Shown: positions 2,414 to 64,000 of the stretch, piece by piece | Layout: the number at the start of each line of letters is the position of its first letter | Position numbering within the stretch: the first letter of the stretch is position 1 | Origin: Halichondria panicea | Taxonomy: Eukaryota; Porifera; Demospongiae; Suberitida; Halichondriidae | Length of the DNA: 64,000 nucleotides | Reading direction: 5' to 3' | Assembly: GCF_963675165.1 (NCBI RefSeq) | Contig: NC_087390.1 | Coordinates: 3,977,301-4,041,300, forward strand | Notes under the pieces: model-generated | What the model was told of the DNA's origin: nothing | Database searches by the model: none | Seen by the model: the letters and a program-made list of their open reading frames with translations, nothing else | Program-made: the position numbers and the translations under genes

Positions 2414-2573
2414 ACTTGTTAATAATAAATCATGTGATAAATGATGAATATAATTATAAAGGGATCCTAGCAGATCCTTTTTTAGTCATGTCAGCACTTT
2501 CTTTCTGCCAAGTCAGCAGTAATTTTGTTTGCGTGTAGTGAATAATGAATATAGATTGCGGGCGTGTGGGAAG

Positions 2574-7633: not shown

Positions 7634-7723
7634 GATGCCCACTCGCGATCTCACGGGGGGCTTGCTGCGTACATACGCGAGCAATCAGCAATTGAAGTTG
7701 TGTCACATGATATGTGACACTGA

Positions 7724-7747
7724 ATGACGCGCGTCCAACCTCCTCTG
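7724..7747 (-). repeat. Right terminal inverted repeat of the 5.36-kb transposon
   Basis: Ends ...gcgtccaacctcctctg and is followed directly by the target duplication gttgggagg (7748-7756), after which the interrupted R repeat resumes with gttggcag. Confidence 0.9.
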
Positions 7748-7756
7748 GTTGGGAGG

Positions 7757-8501
7757 GTTGGCAGTAGACGGGAAAGATTTTGTGGTTGGTAGAAGAGATG
7801 TCGTGATACCTTCGTTTTTGAGGGATCTCTATTTCCAAGAACCATTTACGAGAAGGGCCCGGGTTTTTCCTTGCTTGTCGAATCATCCAGAGCATGGAAA
7901 CCACCTCCTTCAGCCGGCCTTTTCCAGTGACACACTGTACTTGGTATCAAATTGGGCATGAATTAACTAACGGTAGTAGTGAACAAGGGAGGGTAATTGA
8001 TTGCCCAACTACCTCCAGAAACAGTAACAGGCCAGAAACAGTAACAGGAACAGACACACTAAACACAAGCAGGCATAGATGAAAAATACTAAACACAAGC
8101 AGGAGATTGTGCGCGTGACTCTCCGCTGGTACCATTTTTATTCCTTTTCTAGGAGGAACACAGCCTTACGGCCACGAGGTGCAGGCACCTGAGAAGTTAT
8201 TAAGCGAGGTATTTTCTTTGCTTGAGAGAACCACGTATCTTCTGCTGTAGCAACAGAATTGCAGCAACTGCACAACTGCATAATTATGCAAAAGATCACC
8301 AATTGTGGCAAGTGCTCTCAGAACAAAACTTACCACTTCTTTTTCTGGTGGCAGAAGAACTTATTCCAACCAGGAGCAGGCAACCAGGAGCAGGCAAGAC
8401 TCTTTAACAAGACAAATTGCTTTAAAACTTCCATCATCATCAATCCCATAGCTTGAGCATTGTCTTGGAAACTTGGCAAATAAGTATCAGATGTTGAGGT
8501 C
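7757..8501 (+). repeat. R repeat, full-length unit
   Basis: Unit order seen here and in later copies: gttggcagtagacgg, agagatgtcgtgataccttc, aatcatccagagc, ccttttccagtgacaca, aattgggcatgaattaacta, ctccagaaacagtaacagg, gactctccgctggtacc, ttacggccacgaggtgcagg, ttgcagcaactg, accacttctttttctgg, gcaggcaagactctttaaca, ccatcatcatcaatcccat, cttgagcattgtcttgga and gatgttgaggtcgtattca. It contains internal 17-bp and 14-bp tandem duplications (8015-8048; about 8368-8395). I see no coding potential and no known repeat class. Confidence 0.85.
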
Positions 8502-8509
8502 GTATTCAA

Positions 8510-9285
8510 TAGCCTCTACACAGGCTCTCCTTTTTCTGTTCTTTATCACAATCGTTATCACAATCGTTCAATAAGATAAAATACTGTATTAATCGTTCAA
8601 TGAGATAAAATACGGTATTAATTGGAGGAATAAAGAAAGAAATAGACGTAGAGTTAGGAAAAAGGAGAGCCTGTATCGGGAAGTCGCGTGAGGGTGGTAG
8701 AAGGGTGAAAATGAGCGTGGGCATGCTGAGCTAGAGATGTTGGACTGCCCACGCAGAGATCTATGACTAATAAAACTTTGCCTGCAGCAAGCTGGACATG
8801 GACTTGGAACTGGAAGTTTGCAAGCACTATAGCTAGCTATACCTTAGGCTTAGCTAGATGATCTACTAGTTATGTGTTCAGATTATATCAGACTATCCAC
8901 CTTTTCTTGTGTCTTTCTACATACTATAGTCTACTGATAGTATAGATCTAGTCATCATTATCATATAGCAGGTAGCTACTTCCACCAGAGCTGGCCACGC
9001 TGGTTCTCTGATCTGACTTGCAGCACAGCTTGGTGGTTGTCTCAGTACGTACAGTCTTATTAATTAACTCTGAATGCGTGGGAGAATATCTTACGTCACG
9101 ATTGTGGGCTACATATCGCCCACGTTCATAAAAATCCTTGTGGATCACGCGATTTCCCGAACCAGGCCTTCCTTTTTCTTAACTGTACGCCCATTTCTTT
9201 CTTTGCTGCCTCACTATGCCTTTCTTATGATTTATGGATGAACAGTGACAACAGCAAGAAAAAGTAAGGCCTGGGATCGAGGCTA
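8510..9285 (+). mobile_element. 776-bp non-autonomous DNA transposon, 8-bp target duplication
   Basis: Flanked by the perfect direct repeat gtattcaa (8502-8509 and 9286-9293), which occurs once in uninterrupted R units (cgtattcaggttggg at 9926). The left end is tagcctctacacaggctctc; the right end reverse-complemented is tagcctcgatcccaggcctt, and both continue into a ctttttct stretch. No transposase frame is visible. The terminus TAGCCTC and the 8-bp duplication match the 5.07-kb element at 44912-49977, so this is probably a short relative mobilised by the same machinery. Confidence 0.8.
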
Positions 9286-9293
9286 GTATTCAA

Positions 9294-9938
9294 CAGGTTG
9301 GGAGGGTTGGCAGTGGACGGGAAAGATTCTTGTGGTTGGTGGAAGAGATGTCGTGATACCTTCGTTTTTGAGAGATATTCATGACTCTATTTCCATGAAC
9401 CATTTACGAAAGGGCCCACGTTTTTATTTGCTTGTCGAATCATCCAGAGCGTGGAAACCACCTTCTTCAGCCGGTCTTTTCCAGTGACACACTGCTCTTT
9501 AATAGCAGAACTGTAGTGGTGAACAAGGGAGTGTATTTGATTGCCCTACTACCTCCAGAAACAGTAACAGGGGAGACACACTTATTTCTAGGATGCACAC
9601 CGCCTTTACGGCCACGAGTTGCAGGCACCTGAGAAGTTATTAAGCGAGAAATGTTAGGTATTTTCGTAACAAACGACTGCAAGACTCCGCATCAGCTGCA
9701 CAGCAACTGAATTGCAGCAACTGAATGAGTACAAATTCACTAATTCTGGCAAGTGCTATCAGAGCAAAACTGACCACTTCTTTTCTGGTAACCAGATGTA
9801 GCAGACTCTTCGCAGCAGGCAAGACTCTTTAACAAGACAAAAATACTTTAAACTTCCATCATCATCAATCCCATAGCTTGAGCATTGTCTTGGAAACTTG
9901 GCAAATAAGTATCAAATGTTGAGGTCGTATTCAGGTTG
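9294..9938 (+). repeat. R repeat, nearly full unit
   Basis: Runs from caggttgggagggttggcag to gttgaggtcgtattca and has the same word order as the unit at 7757. The module tgttaggtattttcgtaacaa (about 9652) is shared with 2112-2389. Confidence 0.85.
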
Positions 9939-10434
9939 GGAGGGGCAGTAGACTGCTCTTTAATAGCAGACATTGTACTTGTTAGCTTTTCTCAAATTGG
10001 GCATGATGGTGTTGGTGAACAAGGGAGTGTAATTGATTGCCCCAGAAACAGTAACAGGGACAGACACACGCAGGACGTGGGAGCATAGACTTGCGTGACT
10101 CTCCGCTGGTACCATTTTTATTTCTAGGAGGCACACCGCCTTACGGCGAAGAGGTGCAGGCAGCGAGTAATGTTATGTATTTTCTGCTGCAGCAACTGAA
10201 TTGCAGCAACTGAATGAGTACAAATGCCAAGAGATCACCAATTGGGGCAAGTGCTATCAGAGCAAATCTGACCACTTTTTCTGGTAACCAGATGTGGCAG
10301 ACTCTTCGCAACTAGGAGCAGGCAAGTTAACAAGACAAATTGCTTTAAAACTTTCATCATTATCAATCCCATAGCTTGAGCATTGTTTTGGAAATCAGTA
10401 TCAGATGTTGAGGTCTTAATCAGCTCAGACAGGT
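9939..10434 (+). repeat. R repeat, shortened unit
   Basis: Same module order but lacking the agagatgtcgtgatacc and aatcatccagagc segments, giving a unit of about 0.5 kb. It contains ttacggcgaagaggtgcagg and the paired ttgcagcaactgaa words. Confidence 0.8.
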
Positions 10435-11000
10435 TGGGAGGGTTGGCAGTAGACTGGAAAGACACTTGTTAGCTTTTCTCAAATTGGGCATGAATTAACT
10501 AACGGTGGTGGGGAGTGTAATTGATTGCCCTACTACCCTACTACCTCCAGAAACAGTATAACAGGGACAGACACACTAAACACAAGCAGGACGTGGGAGC
10601 ATAGATGAAAAAGACTTGCGTAACTAAACACAAGCAGGAGAGTGTGCACGTGGGAGCATAGAGCACGTGGGAGCATAGATGAAAAAGACTTGCGTGACTC
10701 TCCGCTGGTACTTCCTTTTCTAGGAGACACCGCCTTACGGCCACGAGGTGTAGGCACCTGAGATGTTATTAAGCGAGTAATGTTAGGTATTTTCTGCTGC
10801 AGCAACTGAATTGCAGCAACTGAACGGTACAAATGCCAAGAGATCACCAATTGGGGCAAGTGCTATCAGAGCAAAACTGACCACTTCTTTTTCTGGTAAC
10901 CAGATGTGGCAGACTCTTTGCAACCAGGAGCAGGCAAGACTCTTTTACAAGACAAATTGCTTTAAAACTTCCATCATCATCAATCCCATAGCTTGAGCAT
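10435..11000 (+). repeat. R repeat, shortened unit with internal duplication
   Basis: The segment containing aaacacaagcagg, acgtgggagcatag and atgaaaaagacttgcgt is duplicated inside the unit (about 10570-10700). The unit ends at cccatagcttgagcattcac, where it runs directly into the next copy. Confidence 0.8.
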
Positions 11001-11275
11001 TCACAAGCGTCCAGAGCATGGAAACCACCTCCGGCCTTTTCCAGTGACATACTGCTCTTTGATAGCAGACATTGTACTAGGTAGCTTTTCTCAAATTGGG
11101 CATGAATTAACTAAAGGTGGTGGTGAACAAGGGAGTGTAATTGATTGCCCTCCAGAAACAGTAACAGGCCAGAAACAGTAACAAGGAGAGACACACTAAA
11201 CACAAGCAGGACGTGGGAGCATAGACTTGCGTGACTTTCAGCTGGTACCATTTTTATTCCTTTTTAAAGATTAAT
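11001..11275 (+). repeat. R repeat, 5' part of a unit, adjoining the CA array
   Basis: Begins with gtccagagcatggaaaccac and ends at gctggtaccatttttattcc. About 70 bp later the second CA array begins, so R units are bordered by CA arrays on both sides (compare 2110). Confidence 0.8.
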
Positions 11276-11345
11276 TTAAGTTCCGTTTGAGTTGTAACGC
11301 GAACAGTTGAACAGTTGACACAATTTCTCCACACAAATGATACTT

Positions 11346-14300
11346 CACATCACATCACACCACACACACACACACACAACCTCCCTCCACACACATACAC
11401 ACGCCGTGCACACCCTCCCCCCCACACACACACGGCCTGTACACACCACACACACCACACGGCGTGCACCCACTCCCCACACACACAGCGTGCCCTCCCC
11501 CCCACACACACACGGCTTGCATACACCACACACATATACACACAACACACATACGAACACACACACATCACACTATACCAACACACACATACACACACAC
11601 ACACAACCTCCCTCCACACACACACACGGCGTGCACACCCCCGCCACACACACACGGCCTGTACACACCACACACACCACACGGCGTGCACCCCCCTCCC
11701 CACACACACAGCGTGCACACCCCCCACACACACAACACACACACTGCACACCCCCTCCTCACACACACCACACACCCCCCCACATGCCCCCCTCACACAC
11801 CCCCACCACACACACACGGCTACGCACACACCACACGGCCCTCCCCACACACACACACTGGGTGCACACCCCCCCACACACACACACACAACACACACAC
11901 ACACACCACACCTCCCACCACAGACACAACACACACTGCACACCCACTCCTCACACACAGCACACACACCCCCACATTCCCCCCCACACACACCACAAAC
12001 ACGGCGTGCACACCACACACGCACACATACCACACACACACACGGCGTGCACACCCCACACACACACAGGGTGCACACCCCACACACACATGGCCTGCAC
12101 ACATCACATGTGCCACACACACACACACACACACAACACGACACACACACCCCACTCCACACACACACACAGCATGCACACATCCCCCACACACACACGG
12201 CCTGCTCATGGCTTGCACACACTAAACACCACACGGCCTGCACACCCCTCCCCACACACACACACACACACACACACCAAACACACTCACGGCCCCACAA
12301 ACACACACACACACACGGCATGCACAACACACGGCGTGCACACCCCCCACCCCCCACACACACAACACACGGCGTGCACACCCCCTCCCACACACACACA
12401 CACACCGACACGGCGTGAACACCCCCCTCCACATACACACACACCCACACACATGCACCCACAACACACGCACACTCCCTCCACACACACACATACAGCA
12501 CACACACACACACGGCCTACACACCCCTACATGGCACAAACACGGCGTGCACACACACACACACACACACGGCATGCACACCCCCCAAAGACGGCGTGCA
12601 CACCCCCCCCACATGGCACAAACACGGCGTGCACACACACACACACACACGGCATGCACACCCCCCAAAGACGGCGTGCACACCCCCCCCACACACACAC
12701 ACACGGCGTGCACACCCCCACACAACACACACACACGGCATGCACACCGCCCTCCACAAACACACACACACAAACACGGCGTGCACATCCCCCTCCACAA
12801 ACACACACACGCCCCCACACACGCCCCCACACACACGCACACACACAAACGCGGCGTGCACACCCCCCACACACACACACGGCGTGCACACCACAACCCA
12901 CACAGCGTGCACACCCCCCTACGTGCACACCCCCCTACACACACACACACAAACGCGGCGTGCACACCCCCCACACACCCACACACGGCGTGCACACCAC
13001 AACCCACACAGCGTGCACACCCCCCTACACACACACACAAACGCGGCGTGCACACCCCCCACACACACACACACGGCGTGCACACCACAACCCACACAGT
13101 GTGCACACCCCCCTACACAAACACGGCGTGCACACCCCACACACACAAACATGACGTGCACACCCCCCACACACACACGGCGTGCACACCACAACCCACA
13201 CAGCGTGCACACCGCCCCCAACACACACACAAACACGGCGTGCACACACCACACACACAAACACGGCATGCACACCCCCCCCACACACACACACGGCCCC
13301 ACACAATACACACACACGGCCCCCCACACACACACCTCACACACACCCCTCCACACACACACACACACACACGCGTGCACACACAAACTGTGCACACACA
13401 AACACGACGTGCACACACAAACACGGCGTGCACACCTCACACACAAACTGTGCACACACAAACAATGTGTGCACACCCCCCAACACACACACACGGCGTG
13501 CACACCCCCTCACACACACACAGGGCGTGCACACCCCCACACATACGGCCCCCCACACACACACCTCACACACACACACCCCTCCACACACACACATGCG
13601 TGCACACACAAACTCTGCACACACGTGCACACCCCCCCCCAACACACACCCACACATGCATGCACACACAAACTGTGCATACAGGCGTGCACACACAAAC
13701 ACGGCGTGCACACCTTCCCAACACACACACACGGCGTGCATACCCCCACACACACACACGGCATGCACACCCCCACACAATACACACACACGGCCCCCCA
13801 CACACACACACCCCTCCACACCACACACACACGAGTGCACACAACACGGCGTGCACACACAAACACGGCCCCCAAACACACACACGGCGTGCACACCCCC
13901 ACACAACACACACACACGGCATGCACACCGCCCCCACACACACGCACACACACAAACACGGCGTGCACACCCCCCCTACACACACACACACAAACGCGGC
14001 GTGCACACCCCCCACACACACACACGGCGTGCACAACACAAACCACACAGCGTGCACACCCCCCTACACACACACACACACAAACGCGGCGTGCACACCC
14101 CCCACACACACACACACGGCGTGCACACCACAACCCACACAGCGTGCACACCCCCCTACACACACACACACAAACACGGCGTGCACACCCCACACACACA
14201 AACATGACGTGCACACCCCCCACACACACGGCGTGCACACCACAACCCACACAGCGTGCACACCGCCCCCAACACACACACACAAACACGGCGTGCACAC

Positions 14301-15500
14301 ACACACACACAAACACGGCATGCACACCCCCCCCACACACACACAAGGCCCCACACAATACACACACACGGCCCCCCACACACACACACACACGCGTGCA
14401 CACACAAACTGTGCACACACAAACACGACGTGCACACAAACACGGCGTGCACACCTCGCACACCTCACACACAAACTGTGCACACACAAACACAGTGTGC
14501 ACACCCCCCAACACATACACACGGCGTGCACACCCCCTCACACACACACACGGCGTGCACACCACCACACATACGGCCCCCCACACACACACCTCACACA
14601 CACACACACATGCGTTCACACACAAACTCTGCACACACGTGCACACCCCCCCAACACACACACACACACATGCACACACAAACTGTGCACATTGGCGTGC
14701 ACACACAAACACGGCATGCACACCTTCCCAACACACACACACGGCGTGCATACCCCCACACACACACACGGCATGCACACCCCCACACAATACACACACA
14801 CGGCCCCCCACACACACACCCCTCCACACCACACACACACGAGTGCACACAACACGGCGTGCACACACAAACACGGCCCCCCAACACACACACGGCGTGC
14901 ACTCCTCCACACACACAACCACGGCGTGCACACCACAACCCACACAGCGTGCACACCGCCCCCAACACACACACACACACAAACACGGCGTGCACACCCC
15001 CTCACACACACACGGCGTGCACACCCCCACACAAAACACACACACACCTCACACACACACACACACATGCGTGCACACACAAACTGTGCACACACAAACA
15101 CTGCGTGCACATCCCCCAACACACACGGCGTGCACACCCCCACACAACACACACACATGGCCCCACCTCCACACACACACATGGCGTGCACACCCGCACA
15201 CACACAGCGTGCTCACACAAACACTACCCCCCCAACACACACACCGCCCCACACAACACACGGCTCACACACACACAAACACGGCGTGCACACCCCCCCA
15301 CGCACACAAACATGGCGTGCACACACACACGACACGGCCCCCCCCACACACACACAAGGCGTGCACACCCCCCAACACACACACACAAACACGGCGTGCA
15401 CACTTCCCCCCACACACACATGGCGTGCACACACCCACACTCACACACAAACACTGCGTGCACACACCCCCCTCCACACACACCCCCTCATACACACACA
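11346..15500 (+). repeat. CA-rich minisatellite array B, part 1, with higher-order repeats
   Basis: Same composition as array A. Three levels of structure are visible. Two tandem copies of a roughly 80-bp block containing catggcacaaacacggcg and caaagacggcgtgc lie at 12530-12690. A module cgcggcgtgcacacc / acaacccacacagcgtgcac recurs about every 80-110 bp between 12860 and 14260. A block of about 1.0-1.05 kb is repeated: acaacccacacagcgtgcac followed by accgccccc is at 13191 and 14242, and acgagtgcacacaacacgg is at 13831 and 14839. No coding function. Confidence 0.95.
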
Positions 15501-15700
15501 NNNNNNNNNNNNNNNNNNNNNNNNNNNNNNNNNNNNNNNNNNNNNNNNNNNNNNNNNNNNNNNNNNNNNNNNNNNNNNNNNNNNNNNNNNNNNNNNNNNN
15601 NNNNNNNNNNNNNNNNNNNNNNNNNNNNNNNNNNNNNNNNNNNNNNNNNNNNNNNNNNNNNNNNNNNNNNNNNNNNNNNNNNNNNNNNNNNNNNNNNNNN
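15501..15700. other. Assembly gap (200 N)
   Basis: Exactly 200 undetermined bases within the CA array. The round number suggests a placeholder, so the true array length is unknown. Confidence 0.99.
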
Positions 15701-18700
15701 CCCCCTCCCACACACACGCACACGCACACGCAAATCACACACACGGGCGTGCACACCCCTACACAACACACACACAAATACAAACACGGCATGCACACCC
15801 CTACACAACACACACACAAATACAAACATGGCATGCACACCCCCCTCCCACACACACGGCGTGCACACCCCCCCACACACACACACACCACACACATAAA
15901 CACGTGCACACCCCCCACAAAAACACACGGCACAACACACACACACCACACACACACAAACACGGCCCCTTCCACACACACACACACCCCCACACAACAC
16001 ACACCCCACACACACACCCCCTCCCTCACACACGGCGTGCACACCCCCAAACACACACACACACCACACACGCATACCACACACAAACAGCGTGCACACC
16101 CCCCCACCCACACACATACCACACACAAACACCCCCCCACACACACACGGCACCCACATACCACACACACACACACACACACACCACACACACACACAAA
16201 CATGGCGTGCACACCCCCTCCCACACACACACAACACACTCACACCCCACACACACACACACACAACACACACCCCCAAACACACACCACAAACACAAAC
16301 ACGGCGTGCAAACCCCCTCCCACACACACACACCCAGCGTGCACACCCCAACCAACACGCGAATGCTCCCACACACACGGACCCCCATACACACACACGG
16401 CACACACACACACCACACACACACACACACACACAAACACGGCGTGCACATCCCCCACACACACATACACACAACACACACACACACGCACAACACACAC
16501 ACCCAGTGTGCACACAACACACGCATGCTCCCACACACACGGACACACACACGGCACACACACACACCACACACACACACACACGGCGTGCACATCCCCC
16601 CCCACACACACACACAACACACACACACACACACGCACAACACACACACCCAGCGTTCACACAACACACGCATGCTCCCACACACACGGACACACACACA
16701 CGGCACACACACACACCACACACACACACACACAAACACGGCGTGCACACCCCACACAACAACACACACACCCCCACACACACCCCCATACACTCACACA
16801 CACAAACACAAACACGGCGTGCACACCCCCTCCCACACAACACACACGCACAACACACACACGACGTGCACACCCCCTCCACACACACACACACACACAC
16901 ACATGGCGTGAACACCCCCACACAACACACACAGAAATACAAACACGGCATGCACACCCCCTCCCACACACACACAACACACACACAACACACACACACG
17001 ACACACACACACCCACATACACACACACACGACACACACACGACCACACACAACGCACACACCACACACACTCCACACACACACAAACAAAAACACGTTG
17101 TGCACACCCCCTCCCACACACACACACACAACACGGCGTGCACACCCCCACACAGTGCACACCCCCACACAACACACACACACACGGCATGCACACCCCC
17201 TCCCACACACACACGGCACACATACACAACACACACAAACACGGCGTGCACACCTCACACACACAACACACACACACAACAAACACACACCCCCACATAC
17301 ACACACACACGACACACACACACCACACACACATACCACACACACACAAACACGACACACACACACAAACACACAAACACACACAAACACGGCGTGCACA
17401 CCCCCCCACCCACACACACACACACACCACACACACCCCCTCCCACACACACACACACACACAATACACACACACGACATGCATACCCCACACAACACAC
17501 ACAACACATACACAAATATAAACACCGCCCCTCCCACACCCCACACACACACACCACACACATAAACACGGCGTGCACATACACACACAACACACACACA
17601 CGGCGTGCACACCCCACACACAAATATAAACACGGCATGCACACCCCCTCCCATGCACACCCCCTCCCACACACACAGCACACACACGCCTCTCCCACAC
17701 ACACACACAACACACACACACACACACACACACCACACACACAAACACGGCCTCTCCCACACACACACACACACACAACACACACCCCCACACGACACAC
17801 ACACACCCACACAATACACACAGCCTCACACACACACAAACATAAACACGGCTTGCACACCCCCTCTCACACACACACCTCCCACACACACACACACCAC
17901 ACACACAAACACGCTGTGCACACCCCCTCCCACACACACACACACACACAACACACACATACGGCGTACACACACACACAAACACGGCGTGCACACCTCC
18001 TCCCACACACACACAACACACACACCCCCACATACACACACACCCCCACACACACAAACATAAACACAGCGTCCACACCCCCTCCCACACACACACACAC
18101 ACACAACACACACACACGGCGTACACACACACAAACACGGCGTGCACACCTCCTCCCACACACACACAACACACACACCCCCACATACACACACACACGA
18201 CATACACACACCCCCACACACACAAACATAAACACAGCGTCCACACCCCCTCCCACACACACACATACACCACACACAAACACGGCGTGCACACCCCCTC
18301 CCTCACACACACACACACACACACAACCCCCACACAACACACAAATATAAACACGGCCCCTCCCACACACACACACACGTGCACACCCCCACACACAATA
18401 TAAACACGGCCTCTCCCACACACACACACACACACAACACACACACCCCCACACGACACACACACACCCACACAATACACACAGCCTCACACACACACAA
18501 ACATAAACACGGCTTGCGCACCCCCTCTCACACACACACCTCCCACACACACACACACCACACACACGAACACGCTGTGCACACCCCCTCCCACACACAC
18601 ACACACACAACACACACACACGGCGTACACACACACACAAACACGGCGTGCACACCTCCTCCCACACACACACAACACACACACCCCCATATACACACAC

Positions 18701-20030
18701 ACACGACATACACACACCCCCACACACACAAACATAAACACCGCGTGCACACCCCCTCCCACACACACACATACACCACACACAAACACGGCGTGCACAC
18801 CCCCTCCCTCACACACACACACACACACACAACCCCCACACAACCACAACCCCCACACAACACACAAATATAAACACGGCCCCTCCCACACACACACGTG
18901 CACACCCCCACACACACACAACACACGTGCACACCCCATCCCACACACACATACACCACACACACCACACACAAACACGGCGTGCATACCCCCTCACACA
19001 CACACACCCACACAACACACACACAAATACAAACACGGCATGCCCCACACACACAGTGCCACACACACACACGGCACACATACACACCACACACACAATT
19101 ACGGCGTGCACACCCCGTCCCACACACACACAACGCACACACACAAACATAAACACGGCACACACACATACACGGCACACACACATACACCACACACAAA
19201 CACGGCCCCTCCCACACACACACACACAACACACACAAATACAAACACGGCATGCACACCCCCTCCCACACACACGTGCACACCCCCCCACACACACACA
19301 CGGCACACACACACACACAATTACGGCGTGCACACCCCCTCCCACACACACACAACACACACACAAACATAAACACGGCATACACCACACACAAGCACGG
19401 CGTGCACACACACACAATACACACACAAATACAAACACGGCATGCACACCCCACACACGTGCACACCCCCCCACACACACACATACACACCACACACACA
19501 ATTACGGCGTGCACACCCCCTCCCACACACAAACACGACACACACACACACAAACACACACACACAAATACAAACACGGCATGCACACCCCACACACGTG
19601 CACACCCCCCCACACACACACACGGCACACATACACACCACACACAATTACGGCGTGCACACCCTCTCCCACACACACACAAACATAAACACGGCATACA
19701 CCACACACAAGCACGGCGTGCACACACACACACAACCCCCACACAATACACACACAAATACAAACACGGCATGCACACCCCACACACGTGCACACCCCCC
19801 CACACACACACATACACACCACACACACAATTATGGCGTGCACACCCCCTCCCACACACAAACACGACACACACACACAAACACACACACACACAAATAC
19901 AAACACGGCATGCACACCCCACACACGTGCACACCCCCCCACACACACACACGGCACACATACACACCACACACAATTACGGCGTGCACACCCCCTCCCA
20001 CACACAAACACGACACACACACACACAGAT
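15701..20030 (+). repeat. CA-rich minisatellite array B, part 2, with higher-order repeats
   Basis: Continues after the gap with other sub-families: blocks with acgcatgctcccacacacac (16373-16700), blocks with acaaacataaacacgg and ccctcccacacac (17600-18900), and from about 19097 a module aattacggcgtgcacacc that recurs near 19097, 19319, 19500, 19646, 19829 (aattatggcg) and 19975. The array ends at cacacacacagatgtacagc. Confidence 0.95.
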
Positions 20031-20765
20031 GTACAGCTAATATAATTTTTATCATAGACGATAATTATGACTGAGTAGGTGGATTGACAGCTTTGAGGAT
20101 AAGATCGCCAAGTTTTTCTCCAGTGAAAGGTGCATGCGGCAGTGGCTGGAAAACGCTCCGTCTTCCAAATAGCATCTTCGTATAAAATGTGACAGGCTCT
20201 GGGAAAAAGGCCATATTGGAGCAGATATTAGTATTGAGCAATGGCCAGATTTATGGACTGCAGTGTATAATCTCATAATCATTTTTATTAGCTTATAGTT
20301 ATCTACCTTATAGTTATCTACAGTCTTTCTACTACCTCTCTGTAAAATCTGATGCTCTGAATCCAACGCGTTCCACTGAAGCGCTTTGTCTAAGCATCCA
20401 CCATTACCTTACTTTTCCCAATTTAGCAATCTTTAAGTGGGCGTTTCTCAATATCGCTATTTCAGAACTTTGAGTTTCCAACGCGCATAACTCAGGCATG
20501 AAAAGAGGTATGTGCAAACTAAGCATATCAATGTATAGGCAATTCTTTTGCTCTATCATCTGGTATTTAAATCTCAACAATTGTAGCCTGCTCCAATATG
20601 GCCACAAATAGCATACAAAATAGGACAGATACCTTCAACACAACAAATGTGGCAAGAGCATCGGTACCCGGAAGAGCTCCTGGCGGTTCTGCACAAAGAC
20701 TGACGATGAGCTATTAATAATAAATTCTTCAATAAATTAAAATTAATTATACTGACTCCATGCAC
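20031..20765. other. No gene recognised; short inverted repeat
   Basis: Begins with gatgtacagctaat (20031-20044), a word that also sits at the edge of the GT block near 63246-63260. A 16-bp inverted repeat, ggccatattggagcag at 20209-20224 against ctgctccaatatggcc at 20588-20603, encloses about 360 bp. No convincing exon is visible. Confidence 0.4.
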
Positions 20766-24234: not shown

Positions 24235-26044
24235 TTAGTCGATATTCTCAAACACTCTTCTATGAGATTTGTATTTCTTGAGTGCATTATCCATTTCTTT
24301 GCCAGGCTGAAAACCTTCCAGATAACCTTGTTCATATTCCCTCACTTTTCGAAAGAATTTCCGCATCAAATCGACGGGCACCGATTCTAAGGCAGGAGGG
24401 ATAATCTCTTTCAGTCTTTGAAGCGTGAAGTTAGTGTAGGCTCTACAGTACACCTTTGATTGGCCCCACACCCTCTCAATGGGGTTTAGCTCACAGTGTA
24501 ACTTGGGGAGAAAGAGACAATTGAAACTCCTTTCTTCTACATAATGTTCAACCTGAGTTTTTTCCAATCGAAAATCGTCGTGAAAGGACAAAATTATTCG
24601 CATATCGTCGGCCTTTAGTGTCGTTGGATTGATTCCTCTTTCTGTGAGGATGGTCTTTAAACCCTTTGCTGTTCCATCAGGATTAACCATGAGCTGAGCT
24701 GGGGAGCTCTAGCCCACGTGGTATCTCTCACTCTCCTGGGACCTCCATCTTTGACGAGAATATTTTTTGCGATCAGTGCATGCTCCGCAAACTTCTTGTG
24801 ACAGCTGCTTTGGTCGAGAATGAAGACAACTGTATGCGTTGAGGGTGGATATTTCACTTCAGCAATGTCACATGCATTCTTCATCTCCTCAAGAAACCTG
24901 TCGCCAGTAAAATACCCATCTCACGTTGTGCTCCATACTCCAGAAAAACACGAGCGTTCTTTGCAATACTTGGATCGACCTTTTTGTACGCCTCGTCTGA
25001 GAGATGCAAGTAACCGTCGTATTCGTCAATGAAGTCGGCTATCATAACTCCACTGCCCTTTGTTTTAGGCAATATTGCTGGCTTATCTTCTTCCCCTCAC
25101 ATCCAAGTTTGACCTTCATTGCAGTTGTATATGGACTCGTCGTGGTACAACAAAACGAGTCGCTTCTTGTCATCGTCTTGTTCGACACGAATTCTTGGTG
25201 GTTCGCCAAGACACAGTGGTGGGGGCTTGTGAGTCTTGCGGAGATCTTCCATTTGCTTCAAGTACTTTTCACGATGGTCCACAACATCTTTCCTCTCATG
25301 GCCATCTATATATACGCCTTTCTTATGGTTGCGTGGCTTGAATCCAAGGTAGTGTAACCAACGTATAGCTGTTCTGAGTGAGATTTGTCGGGGGAATTTG
25401 GGAGGAAGAAAACTAAATGGCAGGAGAAAGTCATTAACGTATGTACAGAAACTCTGAGCAGTCATGTTGGGCTTTCCTTTGTTGAAAGCATTCTCCCTCA
25501 CCCACTTCCTTGCTTGACTGTTGATGTTTTCATCGTGATACACCGTAGCTCTTTCGTACTTGCCCTGCTTTCGCTCCTTAAATGTCCCCTTGTTCTGGAA
25601 AAAATCATTCCTGTACTTTTGGATTGTCGTCTGGTGAAATCCAACAAAAGAGGCAGCTTCTTGAGCTGCCTCCTTGACATTCATCCCTTGTCTTTTTTTA
25701 TAGTTTTCCATTAACGCAATAGCCAGCATCTGTCTAGTATTGAACGAAAGGGCAACCATGAAGTCGTCGAAGCACTCCTGAGCCTTCTCATTGGTGAAAA
25801 CGTCCTCATCAGGATCACTGTCGTAGTCTGTTTCACTGTCAATGCTATCAATGTTCAATGTGCAGCAGGTCTTCAATATCCCATGTAGCCAGTAGGGGCA
25901 TATTCGTTGCAAGTGTGCCTGCACACGACCTTTAAGGAACGCTTCTGAGATGGTTGTTCCATTGTATGCGGGCACCTTGTTAGCTACCTCAGTAACCATA
26001 GTGGTTTGCTTCTTAAGGCTTGTGATGGTGCTATTTCTAAGCAA
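24235..26044 (-). pseudogene. IS630/Tc1-like (DDE_3-type) transposase, broken
   Basis: Reads right to left. The N-terminal half (26044-25097) contains a helix-turn-helix-like segment (AAQEAASFVGFHQTTIQKYR) and RTAIRWLHYLGFKPRNHKKG. The catalytic order of this superfamily is present: YHDESIYN (first Asp), FILDQSSCHKKFAEHAL (second Asp) and LHCELNPIERVWGQ (Glu before Arg-Val-Trp), with about 20 further residues to a basic end (KKYKSHRR). Lesions: a TGA at 25094-25096 where a Trp codon fits, a 2-bp insertion near 24925, and a 5-bp tandem duplication (agctc twice) near 24703-24715. Together the parts make about 600 residues, close to full length. It is the third of three minus-strand transposon genes lying head to tail. 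The lesions make it inactive as read. Confidence 0.75.
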
Positions 26045-43024: not shown

Positions 43025-44911
43025 TAAGTACGACAAGTTGTCAAGTCGATAGGTTGCCGCAATAGGTTAGAGCATATTGGGCACTGAAAGTATATCTGTT
43101 TCTAGGTAGCTATTGGTATTGGTGGTATTGGTGCTATGGCCTTAATGTGCTTAATAGCGGCTTGATATGATTAGATATGATGGCCTTCCCATTCTCACTA
43201 CATTTTTTGGCTTCCAAGTGGCGGTGAACATATCAAGCAGCTTGTTTCCTTGTCATCCTACCAATGTGCTCCAGACTTTTTTTGTTAAAATATATTGCAT
43301 TTTTGCAGGAATGGCAGAATTACCTTTGTGGCAATGGAGAAGATCTCGTCTAAATCTGCCTGGTATTTTGGGCAGCTGTATCTTTAAATTTCCGCGTGTT
43401 GCTCATTCATTTCTGCAAATAATAATGCATGCGTGAATTCATGCGTGATTTTATGTTTGATTTTATGTTAATAATACCATAACTTTGAATCTGAATATCT
43501 TTTTGTAAAAACATTAGCCATTTACCTGTCTTTGAAATGAAGTAGCTTTTCTTTATTGAGTACTTCACTTCGTGATATGTGATATGACAAAAATAAATGA
43601 CATATGACGAACAAGGATTTTACCAATGCTGATATGTGACGGTTGCTATCTGAAACTCATGAAAATTACTGCTGTTCAAAAGATGTGTGTGCAGTGCGAT
43701 GTGTGTGCAGTGCTAAAGATTCTTAGAGATTCTAATTGAAGAACACCATACACTGAACTGTGATACCGAAAATGCACTATATGTGACAACGACTAGGCCA
43801 ACGACTAGGCCAACGACTAGGCCAATTTAGTAGAAATGAAAAACATGGGCAAACATTTTTTTTCAACCACCACCACATATTGCGATGATATAACATGATA
43901 TAAGTGTTCAGAATGTTCTCACGGTGACATGGCTCACTCAGGAGGTTCTATCGGCAGACGCTGGGAAATACCTACACATAGGCGGCTCATGATTGTACTA
44001 ACTAAACCTATAGTGAAGCTATCAATAGTGAAGCTATCAAGACTACTACAAATATGCTACTCTATAGTGACTTACCAAGTTCAGGAAGATGGTCCACCTC
44101 AAGTGCGTCCCTCCCAGTCACTGTCCTCTCACTCTAGGCATCGATATTCTCACTCTCTAGCTTCCCCCTGAGGTTGTACTACGAAGATCTTGTAGCAATT
44201 ATAAAACGGTCACTTTTCTTTCGACAATATTAAAAATACCACGTGGAAGAGCAGCTTGTGCTGATACTCCAACACAATGATTTTTGAAATTTGCTAAAGC
44301 GGCTTGATTCGGTCGCTCTACATGAATTCGTACTGAGCGAGTGGTTTGAACTTCGGAGTTGCCATCTGATATTCAGAGCAACACCCAACGGGTCTTGTAT
44401 GGCAAACCCGAAATTTTGTTTTTGCTACTAGTGGGAATCTTCTCTATGAAACCGGATATTCGAGTAAGCTGGACATCAGATATTGCTCCTACTCAATGTA
44501 TCTAAGGCAGGCTAAATGTATTACTGTAAAAAATGTTTTTTAACATGACAATTTTGTATTGTATCTTTGCAGGAGAATACTGTGACAGTATCTAGCAACA
44601 GTATCTAGCATTGGAGAACACTAACAAGTCAACACTTTCAACACTTTAGCTAGATCAGATTACCATGTTATTGTTTGCATAGTGCTAAATTTTTGTGCAA
44701 ACAAATCAACTAATTGGAAGCTATCTTACGGTGTTGAACAATCGCAAAATTCAGGCAGAATGTGATAGGCCAATATAAAATCGATTTTTTACAGTTGTCG
44801 ATTTACACATGAACGACAATCAATCTGATAATCGATTTTTGAAATTCGATTTTTGATAATTGATTTTAGAACTGCTCTGAGAACTGCTCTGAGGTGGGCT
44901 TGGGGGGGGCC
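43025..44911. other. No gene recognised
   Basis: AT-rich intergenic sequence. It contains a 13-bp triplication (acgactaggcca, about 43788-43825) and tandem duplications near 44015-44045, 44590-44612 and 44868-44893. The last stretch, gggcttgggggggg, supplies the target site of the next transposon. Confidence 0.5.
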
Positions 44912-44979
44912 TAGCCTCGAATCCACGCCGATTAAAATACGGCCTGGTGTTCATTGCATGGGTGTTAGTGCACATGCGC
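44912..44979 (+). repeat. Left terminal inverted repeat of the helicase transposon
   Basis: Runs from tagcctcgaatccacgccg through aaaatacggcctggtgttc to ttagtgcacatgcgc. The 8-bp target duplication lies directly to its left. Confidence 0.9.
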
Positions 44980-45095
44980 TGAACAATTACCCAGAATCTG
45001 GGTAATTGTGCACGCCAGTAAAACTTTTAGTAAATGTTACCGTAAACTAGCTTGTAATACTTTTGTTCCGTGTTACTTTTATTGTTTCAATAACA

Positions 45096-46677
45096 ATGGC
45101 ATTGACTGAGACTGCGTTTTGTGAAGCTGTGGCTTATGTTCTTCGTTGCGTTGGTCTCACACTGAAGCCACAAAAGGAGGCTCTCATCGACGGTCATGAT
45201 GTCTTTGCTTGGTTCCCCACGGGCTATGGCAAGTCTTTGTGCTTCCAACTGTTGCCCTTCATGTTTGACTTCAAACTGAAGCGGACAAGCTCGAGCTCTG
45301 AGAGAAGTGTTGTGCTGGTGCTGTCACCACTAGTGTCTCTGATGATAGACCAGGTCTCAGGCCTCCGGAAGAGGGGTGTCTCTACTGCTATAATAATTAT
45401 TGTCTGGCAACAAAGGTAAATAAAGATGTAGATACAGTACCTATAATTATAGAATCTATAAAGTTATTAATGCCTGAACGTAGTGCATTATTACAGTCAT
45501 CCTTCATTTCATAGATGTCGAGAAGGACCTCCTTGCTAGTGTGAGTGACGTGTCCGAGGGTCGGTTCTCCCTCCTCTATAGTGCTCCCGAGGCACTCCTT
45601 GGCAGAGAAACGTGGAAGCAGCTCCTGTCCCCTCTGTGACTCTGTAGTGGCAGTCGCTATTGACGAAGCACACTGTGTGTATAAGTGGTAAGCAAGAGTG
45701 TTTATTCAATTTGAGGCAATATTTTAGGCTATAATTATACATGTATTACAATAAGTGGCTACATCGACGCGACATATAAAACAACACAGCAGTTCTACTT
45801 CGATATTGTCCTAAGATGTAGTGTGTTGCATATAATTATATATGGAGGGTCTCTTTAAAAAACCAGGTCTCCTTAAAATATGTACACATGTAAACTACAA
45901 GATGCCTTTACATGTGCTCTACTGTCTACGCAGTTTTGTATAATGATTTTACAACGTACATGTACAGGAGTAAAGACTGCATTTGATACCTGCGACCTCC
46001 TCGTACGCCATTTCTGGCTGCGACTGCCACTGTGACCAAGAGGATGAGGGACTATGTTGTTCAGAACCTTGGCATGGCAGGCTACTATATGGTGTCTGAG
46101 TCTCCCAACAAGCCTTATGAGGCGGTCAGAAAGACAACAATTGAGGAAGACTTTACATTCGTTGTGGCAGACTTGTTGGACAACACTGTCAAGGCTCGAC
46201 GTATAGTTGTCTACTGCCAGTCACTGAACATGTGCGCGAGTTTGTATGAGAACTTCAAGTACACTTTGAAGGATGCTGGCTACTACCCTCCAGGAGCTGA
46301 ACAGATCAGTGACAACAGAATGTTCGGAAACTCGTGGGAAGCCTGACGGTGTTGTCAGGATTGTGTTTGCGACGATGGCTATTGGTATGGGGGTGGAGGT
46401 GGACTTCAAGAACTTCATCATCCACTATGGTGCCCCTAGGTCACTGGAAGACTAGAGCGGCCGAGATAATCAGCAGTCGTTGGCTAGAGTGTACTGGAGG
46501 CCAGTTGAAGCTCCTGTACGGGCTGATCTCACCATCCCAAGGAACTTGGCTGTGAGGGACTATCTTGAGAACACTGAGCTGTGCAGGAGATTCATGCTAC
46601 TTCGATCCCGTTGTTGCCAGGGACATGAAGTCTCGGGACAAGATGTTCTGCTGCGACAACTGTCGATCCATTGCTAA
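45096..46677 (+). pseudogene. RecQ-like ATP-dependent DNA helicase of the transposon, degraded
   Basis: The start is taken at the ATG at 45096 (MALTETAFCEAVAYVLRC); in-frame sequence upstream lacks an ATG. Helicase motifs in order: I, WFPTGYGKSLCFQLLPF (Walker A GKS); Ia, VVLVLSPLVSLMIDQ; II, VAVAIDEAHCVYKW (DEAH, 45662-45673); then SPNKPYEAVRKTTIEEDFTF, RRIVVYCQSLNMCASLYENF (IV), YYPPGAEQISDNRMF, PDGVVRIVFATMAIGMGVEV (V) and IIHYGAPRSLED. The next part should hold motif VI (Q..GRAGR), but only SGRDNQQS-like sequence remains before VYWRPVEAPVRADL. Thus most of motif VI is missing, and a second deletion follows DNRMF. A microsatellite-like ATAATAATT insertion shifts the frame near 45390. In the intact element the helicase would unwind DNA during transposition; that role is inference. 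Confidence 0.82.
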
Positions 46678-46892
46678 GTGAGGTAATTATTGCAGTTTAC
46701 TGATTAGTAGTCAATCTCATTATAAATCAGGTGACTAGATCTCATCGTAATGAAAAATCTCTGTGTCTGGTATATTGTCAAGTCCATACGAGGCACTGGT
46801 ACATGTCTGCATCCTCAGTGTCGGAGCCAGTTCTCATAGCAGTTTCGCTCATTGTGTACTCCATGTGGTCATCTTTTGTCTGTTTAATTTAT

Positions 46893-49797
46893 GCAGGGGG
46901 AACTTGGGGAAGTCTTCACGTCCTTCTCGTCTGATCTTTTGCTGTGGGCTGTTGCTAGAGGGTGGATGCCGGTCTGCTTATCAAAACTGACGGAGAGTGT
47001 CTCGAGGGCTCTTGCTGCCCAGGTACTGGCTGCTTTCGAAAAGTTCGCACCCATGTTTGAGATTATATCTTTGAACAGCTTGTTGATGTGCTCGTTGTGG
47101 AGATCACATGGGACCGTGAGTATTGACGAAGCGGCCCCAGGTCAGCTGATGAGAGAGGTATGGCTGTAGAGTAGCAACTTGAAACTGCAGCCTCAGTGCC
47201 TCAAGTGCGTACTTTGTCTTCCTTTCAGAATGGAAGTGGAGCATCATGATCTTCCACAGTCGAAGTACACGCTCACCGTCTCCTTCCTTGCAGTACCAAG
47301 GAGGCGAAATGACACAATACTCGAGCATACCTGTACACATAATCTCTATTGTCTACCACAGGCTCTCCAAGCAGCGCCTCAGGGATCACTGTGAACTCCT
47401 TGACCACTTTCTGTGCCACACTCTTCAACAGATCCTGGTTGACCTCCTTGTAGGACCTAGTGTGCATAATGTTGGTGGCATAATGTTCTCAGTCAGGTAT
47501 GTTGTGTACTATTCCACGTCTCCTTGCAGCCCGCTGTCACAATGTGCCCTTTGAACACAATGAGCAGAGATTCTTGACATGAGTGCATGTCATCCTTTGG
47601 CTTCTTAGCTTTCGAGCGTCCAATACGTGCGAAGATACTATTGAGACTGCCGTAGTCTTCTTGACTGGCCTTGTACAGCTTCTGCCAGATGAGCTGCAAA
47701 TAACAGGAAGGTACGTCAAATGTAATCACATGTACATACGTGGGTGTATTTAGATAGTATGTGGACGTGTACATACGTACATAATGATGCATTTAGGTAT
47801 GTGTATACATACATGTAAGTACAGTTGCTGTACGTATTACTATTCTTAGTGATATCCTCAATAACACGTGTGTGTAGAACAAAATTTTTTGTTAGTGGTA
47901 GGCTCTTATAGGAGTACTGGTGGGCACTTATAGGAATACTCATATGTACAGTACTCTACAATCATAAAGTTCATCACACAGTGCCAGTCCTCAATACACG
48001 GCTACTATTTGAGCACTGCACATGACGTGAGGTGATCACCCCCAGTCAGTGCTGTGTGCTTGTAGCTCTCATGATCTCCACCATTTCACTGCTCACAATT
48101 TCGTTGTTGTGCAGCACATCCAACACAACTACCTTCGACTTTGCTGCCATCTCTTGGTGTGTGTTTGGTGACCAGCCTCTTCAACTCCTCAACTCCTTGA
48201 AACCCTCGATATAATCACACAGGATTCTACTCACTAACACCTCAAGGTCTCCCTGGATGACAGTGATATATTCCTTGATTGGTAGGAAGCACTCAACTGT
48301 GTCTGTGCATCAACTGTGTCTGTGCAGAGCGAGAGAGGAAAAGGAGGTGAGACACGAGCCTTGACAGCGAATATGCTGAACATGTGCATGAGCCTCCCAT
48401 GGTGGTCACTCCTTATGTCCCGCACACTGACCTGCTTGTCCACATTGTCACCGACAAACTTTACAAATGCCCCCTCACTCAACCACCACTTGTCTAGCAC
48501 TTTGGTATGGCCCTCACTGATCTTTTTGACACGCTTCAGTATCGCTTCGTAGCTGAGGGTCACATTGATGTGGTTTAGCCTGGCCCAAGCCTAAATAATA
48601 CTGTTCTTACCATGTGATCAATGCTCTATTTTATACGCGCACACAATTTATACGCGCACACAAACACGCACAGACCTTCAAGAGGGCACACGAGAGATAG
48701 GATTGAATCCCACACATCCGCTCTTTCAAGAGGATGGCCACTGCTGTACACAGTCCTGGGAACTGCCGATCTCCCTTCTTCTTCTTGTTCCTCTTGGACG
48801 AGTTGCTGACAGCACAACGTAGAATCTCGTAGAGAGTAGGAGCGATTGCTTGTGTCCACGCGAACCTCTCAGCCTGCTCAAGGGTCATGGACCGAAACAT
48901 GGACCGAAACAGCGACACTGGCTGGGCACTCTTGCTGCACAACACACTACACTCATCATTTATGATCCTTGATACCCAAGCCACAACATCATTACTGAGA
49001 CAAGGAGTAGACAAAACAGCCCTGCAAATGGATTGAAGATTTCCCCCAGCAAGTGCCTTTGCGATCTTTTCCAGGTACACTTACTTGGTGAGTACTGTAA
49101 GTGTGCGTTTGACTCATGATTATTACCGTACAATGTACTTTATAATAATACCTTGACAGATTGTTTGTCAGTAGCAGTGCTGGCACTCGTAGTCTGTAGT
49201 GTGCACTCAATTCCAGCTATAATTATAGGATAATTATAATTATTTATTATAACACTCAGGTATAGATCTACCATTGGGTTGCTGAGTACTGGCAGTCTCA
49301 ATAGAAGTTGCTTGAGTAACGTTGCTCCGATCCCTCAGCGGCGCAATGACTAACAAATTACAGTAATTTTAGAAACTCGTAATTTTTATCTTGGGAAACA
49401 GAGTCGCCTTCCAGCGGTCTGGCGCTTAGCTGATGGTCTTGCTACGTGTGTGTGTGGAGAAACCCCTACCCCCTTTCTCGGAGCCACAACTCGAGTACTT
49501 GTTGGGCTGCCAGTGACACTTGTGAGAGGCCTGGGTAGAAGTGCCCTTCTCTTCTCATAGCTAGCCTTGGCTAGAACTCTAAATGACTCTGCTGACAGAA
49601 ACTTTCTGTTGCAAGGCCTGCAAATAATGGTGGGAGAGACCATCACCATCATCTGGAGTTATTGGAACCTCTGTGATTTTGCTGAGCCTCTCTGCAAGAT
49701 CTGAGGAAGGGTATCCTTTGGGGAAAACTGCAATGTAATGAGAAGAAGACAAGAAACTGCAGCAAGTCCTGCATGATAAGGATTCTGCGGTAGCCAT
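46893..49797 (-). pseudogene. DUF6589-like protein of the helicase transposon (candidate transposase)
   Basis: The start is chosen at the ATG at 49797 (MATAESLSCRTCCSFLSSSH), which keeps an N-terminal CxxC. A second pair follows (ICRPCNRKF, about 49630), giving a ZAD-like zinc module. Further segments: LEQAERFAWTQAIAPTLYE (48880-48820), VTLSYEAILKRVKKISEGH (48560-48500), FVKFVGDNVDKQVSVRDIRS (48475-48415), SKVVVLDVLHNNEIVS (48150-48100), EDWHCVMNFM (47995-47965), QEDYGSLNSIFARIGRSKAK (47670-47600), YALEALRLQFQ (47220-47185), LTWGRFVNTHGPM (47145-47104) and CDLHNEHINKLFKDIISNMG (47107-47050), ending PLATAHSKRSDEKDV (about 46930). The order matches a family I recall as DUF6589. GDNVDK, EDWHC and HNEH are plausible acidic active-site residues, but this is inference. 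It has multiple exons with several frame breaks. It ends about 0.2 kb from the convergent helicase gene. Confidence 0.72.
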
Positions 49798-49895
49798 TTC
49801 TCAGTTGTTTAACCACTGTATTTTTCCTGCGAACCATGCAGTATAACGTATTCTCATTCTGTTTATTTTCCGTTTTATTATCAACAATAAATTTC

Positions 49896-49977
49896 GCGCA
49901 TGTGCACTAACACCCGCGCACTAACACCCCTGCAATGAACACCAGGCCGTATTTTAATCGGCGTGGATTCGAGGCTA
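49896..49977 (-). repeat. Right terminal inverted repeat of the helicase transposon
   Basis: The reverse complement begins tagcctcgaatccacgccg. Compared with the left end it has an extra roughly 14-bp tandem copy (cactaacaccc repeated) and one base change. Confidence 0.9.
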
Positions 49978-49985
49978 GGGGGGCC

Positions 49986-50654
49986 CCACTTGGTCAGTGG
50001 ATCTTTGGATCAATTTAAATTTGTTTTGGGCAGAATTTCAAGGGCAGAATTTCAAATCGATAGAAATTTATATATTTATATTTTTTGATTATGCAAATGA
50101 GTTCATTCTATTTTCAATTCTTGGAGCAGAAAAAGCAGTTTCAGCACCCACAGGGGTTAGCTTATAAAATTAATTATTAATCATAAAATTTTAATGTTAT
50201 AAAATCAGTATTATGTGCACCTAGCTTGTATGCGTACAGATTAAGTACAGGTTAAGTTAACAGTTGTATCCCACGACAATGACGTATAGGTGTTCCAAGT
50301 ACTGACGGTACTATACATATAATCATACAGTTGTTCGATTGCACACCATAATTTAATTGATCCTTCAACATTGAAATATTAGGCAACGAATATTAGGCAC
50401 GTCCGAAGAAAATTGAACTGTTTGCCAATTGGAAAAAAGGCTGGATGTCCGTCCAACTACAGAATGGAACACACAGATAGGATGAGTCCAAACTCATGTA
50501 ATGAATCGGTGGAGGTGTTCAAAAGCAATAGTTTTTATATACATTATATATTATCTGATAACATTTTAAATTTTGCTACATGTGTGAATGTGTGAAGGAA
50601 GTCAAGGATGATTTCCTTAGCGCCGGAAAATATTAACTTTTGTAAACAAACTTA
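49986..50654. other. No gene recognised
   Basis: AT-rich flank of the helicase transposon. The only longer open frame (50413-50595) has no recognisable motif or splice context. Confidence 0.4.
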
Positions 50655-61763: not shown

Positions 61764-62559
61764 TAAGTGGTGAATTTTCATTGTTGTGAAACAGCGGTGA
61801 TGCGTTTCCAATCCCTTTCCTTTACTATCTATGCCAAGACTATAATACAATGATAATTATGCTTAATTGCTAACTGTATGCTACCTTTTTACCTATAATT
61901 ATCTTGTATGTCTCAAAGTTCTTCTGTTGTAGGATGTTGGTTTTGCAAATGTAGCTAGCTCAACCTGTAACTTGTGCATGGATATGGCTGCATGCCCGCT
62001 TACTTTGCGTGAGAGGGTGGAGCTCAGTATATGCAAAGGGGTGGAGCTGAGGTCATGTGACGTTGGCTAGCTCTCTTAGAGTAGGATCAGGAGTAGGCAG
62101 TGTAGTATTGTTTCCACAAATGCGGAGTCCTAAAACCTACCTTTTCAGCTTTTTACTACTTTAGGCTAAAAGAATATACATTATTTTGTTAGTTTAAATC
62201 TAGCTGGGGAAAGCTAAAGAATCGGCCGATCACCTGTGATAAGTCCTCATGCACCTGGCTGGAGCCCGCAAGTTTTATTGTACTTGGTCATGATTTAACT
62301 TTCCCCAGCTAGTTTATGCTAGTGTTCATTACTAAGAAGGTATTGTAAACGTTTTAGCTCTTGAAAGGGAGTGCTTCCCATCCGCATTTTAGAGTGATAC
62401 CTGCATGACGTCATCTTATTATTACAGACTTATCAATTAACACAATCAGATAAAAATAAAAATAAACGTAAATTTAATCTTGATTACATTGTATTCACAA
62501 AAAATATATGTTCTCATAGAGTGCATCAAAGTCGTTGCTGTTTTTCTTCGTAGAAATTA
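61764..62559. other. No gene recognised
   Basis: AT-rich. Inverted words ctagctggggaaagc (62202) and gctttccccag-like ctttccccagctag (62299-62312) suggest a small palindromic element. It ends at a gacccgggcc terminus. Confidence 0.4.
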
Positions 62560-62569
62560 GACCCGGGCC
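62560..62569 (-). repeat. Solo terminus of the TTAA-type element
   Basis: gacccgggcc is identical to the right end at 53591-53600. Here it is followed by TTAT rather than TTAA, and directly after it the GT-strand minisatellite starts. Confidence 0.45.
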
Positions 62570-62574
62570 TTATA

Positions 62575-63245
62575 ACGGTGTGCACGCCGTGTTTGTGTGT
62601 GTGTGTGTGTGTGGGGGGGTGTGCACGCTGTGTGTGTGGGAGGGGGTGTGCATGCCGTGTTTGTATTTGTGTTGTGCATGCCGTGTGTGTGTGTTTGTGG
62701 GTGTGTTTGTGGGAGGGGGTGTGCACGCCGTGTGTGTGGGAGGAGCCATGTTTGTATTTGTGTGCATGCCGTGTGTGTGTGTGTGTGTGGGAGGGTGTGT
62801 ACGCCGTGTTTGTGCACGCTGTGTGTATTGTGCATGCCGTGTTTGTATTTGTGTGTGCGCACGTCGTGTGTGTGTGTGTGGGATGGGCCGTTGTGGGATG
62901 GGCCGTGTTTATGTTTGTGTGTGTGGGAGGGGGTGTGCACTCCGTAATTGTGTGTGTGTGCCATGTGTGTGTGTGTGGGGGGGGTGTGCACGTGTGTGTG
63001 TGTGGGAGGGGGTGTGCATGCCGTGTTTGTATTTGTGTGTGTGTTGTGTGGGGGTTGTGTGTGTGTGTGTGGGGGGTGGGCCCGCCGTGTTTGTGTGTTG
63101 TGTGTGGTGCATGTGTGTGTGCCGTGTATGTGTGTTTATGTTTGTGTTTATGTTTGTGTGTGTGTGTTGGAGGGGGTGTGCACGCCGTAATTGTGTGTGT
63201 GGTGTGTATGGGTGTGCACGTGTGTGGGGTGTGCATGCCGTGTTT
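62575..63245 (-). repeat. GT-strand minisatellite block (array B type, inverted)
   Basis: Reverse complement of the sub-family seen at 19.1-20.0 kb: it contains ggtgtgcacgccgtaattgt, tgtgcatgccgtgtttgtat and gtgcacgtgtgtg words in the same spacing. It ends in tttgtatttgtattagctgt. Confidence 0.92.
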
Positions 63246-64000
63246 GTATTTGTATTAGCTGTACATCCAAAGGAGCCAGGGAGTGCCAATCATCTGCCAA
63301 TCATCTTCTCCCAGTCTCTGACACACTAAACAAAACGAGCTAGAACTGCCAACCAACTATATTATATAAAGTTATATATAATATAACAGCCATAAGGTTG
63401 CATTTTTGCTTGCAGGTTTTTGCGAGTTGAGCCATGCATCAGCTTTATTGTACGGGAGCTCTGTACAAACAGATCTCAATCACGACTTTCAGAAGAGAAT
63501 TGCACTGTCAACAGTTTGCTAAACGAAACAACTGACAGGACCACGATGCTTAGCATCCATGCTAAATGCTAAGTGCTCGCATGCAGATCTACCAGTCCAG
63601 CTTTGACGAGTCTTGTATACCTAACGTTCACCTTCACCTAACATTCACCTTTTGTTTCTTGGGGGCATGATCCACAAAACTGCTATAGCAAATACTCTAT
63701 CAGAGAAGCTAAAACTACACTTCTGGTATAAAATGCACATGCATAGCAATGCCATGGCAACGCATAAAAGCGCATCATGATGATGTCATTACCCACACAA
63801 TTTTGCAAATTTTTGTGGGCAAATCCAAAAAACAAGGAACCCATATCACTCAAAATTTGGTATGGTGATTATGTATACTTAAATAAATATCTTGATGTAC
63901 TTTTTTCACTGAAATGTTGCATACTTTTTAGTGTACAATTTTGGACATTTTTGCACTATACAAAGACCTATACGAAGACAAACTTTGATGGTTCCAGCAC
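63246..64000. other. No gene recognised
   Basis: Begins with attagctgtacatcc, the reverse complement of the word at the right edge of array B. The remainder is unique AT-rich sequence with no convincing exon. Small duplications (for example ccaatcatctg near 63286-63308) are present. Confidence 0.45.

Follow-up and report, generated by a model that had tools for sequence, protein, structure and literature searches.

A decayed AcademH-type transposon in Halichondria panicea and a probable transposase function for DUF6589

What kind of element places a RecQ-like helicase gene and a gene for a DUF6589-like protein between inverted ends, and which of the two proteins would move it? The question is raised by a 5066-bp segment in a 64,000-nucleotide stretch of the Halichondria panicea genome (G000:C14:3977301-4041300, hereafter the window), which a sequence-only reading had proposed as an undescribed transposon. 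A search of the genome (131 Mb, 39 contigs) confirms from the ends, duplications and gene pair that the segment is a transposon; with a probability of about 0.92 it is a decayed copy belonging to AcademH, a lineage within the Academ DNA-transposon superfamily. This assignment is made by published description and by homology to an AcademX relative identified by layout, not by reference sequences.

The matched inverted ends that had been claimed are readily confirmed. A repeat search finds arms of 71 nt at 44901-44971 and 49918-49988 that are 93% complementary, with 11 nt of each arm belonging to the flank; the outer 60 bp of the two ends match at 98%, and the inverted ends are far above chance level. 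The element and its boundaries are as follows.

44912-49977, no strand: whole element, decayed AcademH-type transposon copy, 5066 bp (G000:C14:4022212-4027277)
44912-44971, plus strand: left terminal inverted repeat, 5′ start TAGCCTCGAATCC, 98% to the right repeat over 60 bp
49918-49977, minus strand: right terminal inverted repeat, from the repeat search and end comparison
44904-44911, plus strand: left target-site duplication ggggggcc, 8 bp exact, or 9 bp with one mismatch if 44903 is included
49978-49985, plus strand: right target-site duplication ggggggcc, from flank comparison

Because it is sited in a run of G, the window duplication is weak on its own, and its length is better judged from sibling copies. 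The left end was searched against the genome with the best 40 of 628 candidates scored, and the right end with the best 40 of 584; copy numbers are lower bounds. Fifteen copies have both ends paired; five of them are relatives with genes that were located through DUF6589. The duplication is 9 bp and exact in 9 of the 15, 9 bp with one mismatch in the window copy and in L003/L015, and 9 bp with two mismatches in L025/L007 and L019/L013, which share flanks; none is present in L023/L017, where the left end is altered, or in a copy on C10. These siblings place the duplication length of the family at 9 bp, and the 8 bp claimed earlier, which holds as the exact length in the window copy, was dropped as the family length. 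Terminal inverted repeats and a 9- or 10-bp duplication, both features of AcademH, are present. Helitrons have neither inverted ends nor target-site duplications, and are ruled out by the presence of both.

All seven paired copies of 1.9-2.5 kb are window-type deletion derivatives that keep the ends and remnants of both genes, namely part of the helicase start (within element positions 1-793) and a DUF6589 stretch around 3549-3689. Other copies of the ends do, then, contain remains of the genes; at least one short copy, L030, differs: it measures 1095 bp, its 9-bp duplication is exact, and its likeness to the window element is limited to the first 170 bp.

The same gene pair is found across the genome. 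A search with Pfam PF20231 (DUF6589) gave 92 places in 63 clusters. Among the 30 best, all but three (L043, L053 and L056) have a RecQ-like helicase within 1.5 kb, with the 3′ ends of the two genes facing one another in 27 of 27. These 30 loci are not independent events, as several are near-identical copies (L037-L042 account for six). Outside the query loci and their copies, the helicases have 26-65% identity to the nearest of three query helicases. In the reverse direction, a search with the RecQ family model, in which the best 28 of 512 candidates were scored, gave at least 37 places in 27 clusters, 16 of them within 5 kb of a DUF6589 cluster vs 0.13 expected under random placing. Of the other 11, seven fall below the RecQ cut-off and four above it, and the latter are probably the host's own. 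A search for related loci in viral contigs gave no match.

The ends and duplications of the five gene-bearing relatives indicate that this pair sits between differing ends. Copies on C10 (G000:C10:1620706-1626054) and C17 (2205672-2211020) are 99.9% identical over 5349 bp and have inverted ends of 69 bp that match perfectly, TAGCCTCGAGACCAGCC; on C17 the copy is flanked by the duplication CTATGATAT, and on C10 by none. Recent movement of this family is likely. Four further loci, L039-L042, equal these two copies in PF20231 score. A closer cousin of the window element, 5821 bp long, lies on C5 with the duplication TGCCGGCCT, and a third family with ends TAGTTGGGCGG has the duplications GTACCGTAG on C1 and GGTATAGCC on C3. 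Wherever the duplication of these relatives is exact (four of the five), it is 9 bp. Gene copies thus do lie between such ends, and the suggestion that the helicase is cargo was dropped, since the pair recurs, gene facing gene, in diverged families. The wider idea that many RecQ-like and DUF6589 genes are transposon genes is supported for this genome, where many lie together as such; the same may hold for invertebrates at large.

A second kind of relative resides in the same genome. The element at L074 1164-7382 (G000:C9:1648163-1654381) has a single open frame of 1732 aa, in which a DUF6589 part is followed by a predicted nuclease of EXO1/FEN1/XPG fold and a CXC-like end; there is no helicase in the frame. 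Further copies are on C14 and C3, and with the ends set by comparing the three copies, a 4-bp duplication is present in all three. The DUF6589 part matches both PF20231 and the family of the window element (profile comparison E 2.8e-9). This is the layout of AcademX, and the element is identified by layout, not by reference sequence. The transposase of the window family is in this sense homologous to that of XPG-carrying Academ elements, the comparison element itself being assigned by layout. The window element is not an AcademX element, having a helicase and a 9-bp-type duplication rather than an XPG-type nuclease and a duplication of 3-4 bp. The helicase/9-bp and nuclease/4-bp states are therefore both present in one genome.

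As cited in later papers, AcademH elements occur in animals and fungi and have a helicase gene and 9-10-bp duplications (Kojima 2020, Mob DNA 11:15), and Academ is counted among the DDD/E transposase superfamilies (PMC9587614). Compared by these descriptions, the window family shares the helicase gene, the duplication length and the DDD/E transposase with AcademH, and no difference was found. The helicase, of superfamily II and RecQ-like, is recognised by a DEAD match in the window, by Helicase_C and RecQ_Zn_bind matches on relatives, and by its presence at 27 of the 30 loci; the RNase-H fold of DDD/E enzymes is seen in a predicted model that has conserved acids. The term "undescribed" was consequently not borne out. 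It is very improbable that the family represents a new superfamily merely sharing a helicase with AcademH. That reading could draw on the fact that DUF6589 is named in no paper of the literature searched, which says nothing on databases or other papers, and on the likeness to AcademH being judged by description; against it, the helicase and the 9-bp duplication fit the description, and the transposase shares ancestry with the one in the XPG-nuclease element, whose 4-bp duplications and layout are those of the sister lineage. The literature searched contained no paper on Academ transposons with a CXC domain and none that joins an Academ transposase to both XPG and a helicase; for Academ elements in sponges it gave only a paper that, by its title, concerns mollusc piRNAs, and by title none of the papers on transposable elements in the H. 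panicea genome dealt with this subject. A RecQ helicase is also found downstream of the transposase in fungal KolobokH elements, DDD/E transposons with a TTAA 4-bp duplication (PMC9587614). The window family differs in its convergent genes and 9-bp duplications of varied sequence, and Kolobok membership is ruled out by the lack of a TTAA duplication.

It is highly improbable that both genes are passengers from the host on an element moved by some other, unseen transposase. Such an arrangement could account for the 1095-bp copy with its exact duplication and its likeness over 170 bp only, but in diverged families, whose ends differ, the interior is taken up by this one pair in unchanged convergent order, and the DUF6589 protein is modelled with a transposase-like fold. 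In this confident predicted model, the closest solved cores are those of the P-element, Hermes, Transib and RAG1 proteins. Sequence searches of solved structures with DUF6589 found no relative (the only hits, in one of them, were two chains of haemoglobin with E 0.75), and a Foldseek comparison of the model at E <= 0.001 had no useful outcome. The predicted fold is RNase-H-like, as the earlier proposal of a transposase had called for, and the protein is very probably a transposase with such a core. The parts of its gene in the window, in the order of the protein, are listed here.

49386-49652, minus strand: frame containing two paired Cys residues (CRPC, 49611-49622); weak zf-AD match of 12.5 bits, below the cut-off of 28; perhaps the N-terminal zinc finger of the protein
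48682-49029, minus strand: N-terminal part, 39% match to relative L046
48342-48485, minus strand: putative transposase region with the first catalytic-acid motif, GDNVDK at 48435-48452 (D20 of P0002)
48067-48288, minus strand: core of the protein by comparison with relatives, stop at 48181-48183
48026-48043, minus strand: GGDHLT, likely second catalytic acid (D165 of P0002), aligned to EGDQ of single-frame relatives
47978-47992, minus strand: EDWHC, C/DxxH-like motif, by comparison with relatives
47523-47705, minus strand: start of the putative helical insertion domain, PF20231 12.1 bits
47113-47428, minus strand: helical insertion domain in two frames, EGDGER at 47269-47286; PF20231 26.6 bits on 47107-47340
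46911-47114, minus strand: last stretch of the DUF6589 domain, PF20231 18.4 bits; HNEH at 47088-47099 likely supplies the third catalytic acid (E416 of P0002)

The three PF20231 matches follow one another in profile order (152-209, 286-345 with E 3e-6, and 351-390); the cut-off of 27 bits is for the whole protein, and no window piece reaches it alone. Five other minus-strand frames have no PF20231 match, and the window copy is not among the places found by the genome-wide search.

The motifs GDN, GGDQLT and (N/M)EH probably supply the catalytic acids. The acids had been assigned beforehand to GDNVDK, EDWHC and HNEH; the first and third are kept, and EDWHC was set aside as the second. GGDQLT is preferred for its place in the model, where it comes after strand 160-163 and is followed by a helix and the short strand 192-194, and because the XPG-type relatives have a separate counterpart for each of the two motifs in the alignment. 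A C/DxxH-type motif is the likelier identity of EDWH. The model also resembles P and hAT (Hermes) transposases in having an RNase-H core split by a helical domain. hAT elements make 8-bp duplications, and we know of no hAT or P element that carries a RecQ helicase. That the window element belongs to either group is scarcely credible and was ruled out, for although their folds are the closest solved ones and the window copy has an exact duplication of 8 bp, the duplication is 9 bp in all nine other copies where it is exact, and the DUF6589 proteins scanned with Pfam match PF20231 but neither a hAT nor a P family.

Comparison with relatives places the helicase gene on the plus strand, convergent with the DUF6589-like gene; its motifs are numbered by the usual scheme.

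45096-45395, plus strand: first piece, ATG at 45096, motif I PTGYGKS at 45216-45236; Pfam DEAD 36.9 bits, 45186-45395 aligned to relatives
45644-45688, plus strand: motif II, DEAH at 45662-45673, by comparison with relatives
45996-46328, plus strand: piece with TATVT and VVYCQS (motifs III and IV), by comparison with relatives
46339-46669, plus strand: motif V region (GMGV), in-frame stop and gap at the expected motif VI, then a CCDNC zinc-binding end

Where the window copy has this stop and gap, relative L045 has DDYFQESGRAGR; RecQ_Zn_bind is matched on L045, and Helicase_C and RecQ_Zn_bind are found on relatives. The order and identities of the two convergent genes are as had been read, but both are broken in the window copy. 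The DUF6589 gene has the stop at 48181-48183, two further stops between GGDHLT and EDWHC, and frame shifts around 47287 and 47113. This copy could move only with the help of intact relatives.

The ends, the duplications, the gene pair and the common descent with the XPG-type element are established, and a mechanism can be proposed around them. The DUF6589 protein would be a DDE transposase of RNase-H fold whose core, like that of P and hAT elements, has a helical insertion. It would bind the ends, cut them via its D-D-E site and insert them at target sites with a 9-bp stagger. Its partner, the RecQ-like helicase, may act at the ends or at the target, where it might open or process DNA while the element is excised or joined or while gaps are repaired. 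A flap-type nuclease would replace the helicase in the sister lineage that carries XPG, and the stagger would there be 4 bp.

The evidence from the relatives suggests that DUF6589, a domain of "unknown function", is the enzyme that moves AcademH-type elements. We think it fairly probable that the whole Academ superfamily has PF20231 as its catalytic core, with either a helicase or a flap-type nuclease as exchangeable partner, and that the partner tracks stagger width (9 vs 4 bp) within one genome. A joint change of partner and duplication length in Academ has already been proposed, according to a paper citing Kojima 2020. The new part is modest: within a transposon kind already known, DUF6589 gains a probable function, a predicted fold and candidate residues. 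A common family would be assigned to a known transposase kind, with residues predicted for the chemistry. If true, the DUF6589 genes of invertebrates would mostly be transposon genes, as would many of their RecQ-like genes that miss the RecQ cut-off, and in genomes of this sort many gene models that look like RecQ may have no part in host repair. With both lineages and near-identical helicase-type copies in one genome, the relation of partner to duplication length is testable.

Two loci of the family have features of their own. The C6 sibling of the window element is 6.35 kb long, with a PF20231 score of 36.5 bits, and contains a 196-aa frame (L061 14-604, plus strand), probably a nested insertion, which resembles a retrotransposon protein in its C-terminal region. 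The stretch examined at the C3 locus around L057 has no inverted end pair, and this locus is not counted among the 15 paired copies. An AcademX-type copy (G000:C3 around 3632667) stops ~20 bases short of the point where the helicase-type L057 locus begins to resemble the window element, at element position 597; it may have landed in the helicase-type element, which would explain the missing left end.

Elsewhere in the window, a 315-aa open frame on the minus strand (25097-26044) ends in LYHDESIYNCNEGQTWM and looks like another transposase-type protein, although Pfam gives nothing for it at E <= 0.1. The segments 644-20040 and 62535-63329 consist of very long minisatellite-like repeats rich in CA, which contain open frames of up to 1641 codons, almost surely not genes, that read as His/Thr/Pro on one strand and Cys/Val/Gly on the other, with one stretch reading as X.
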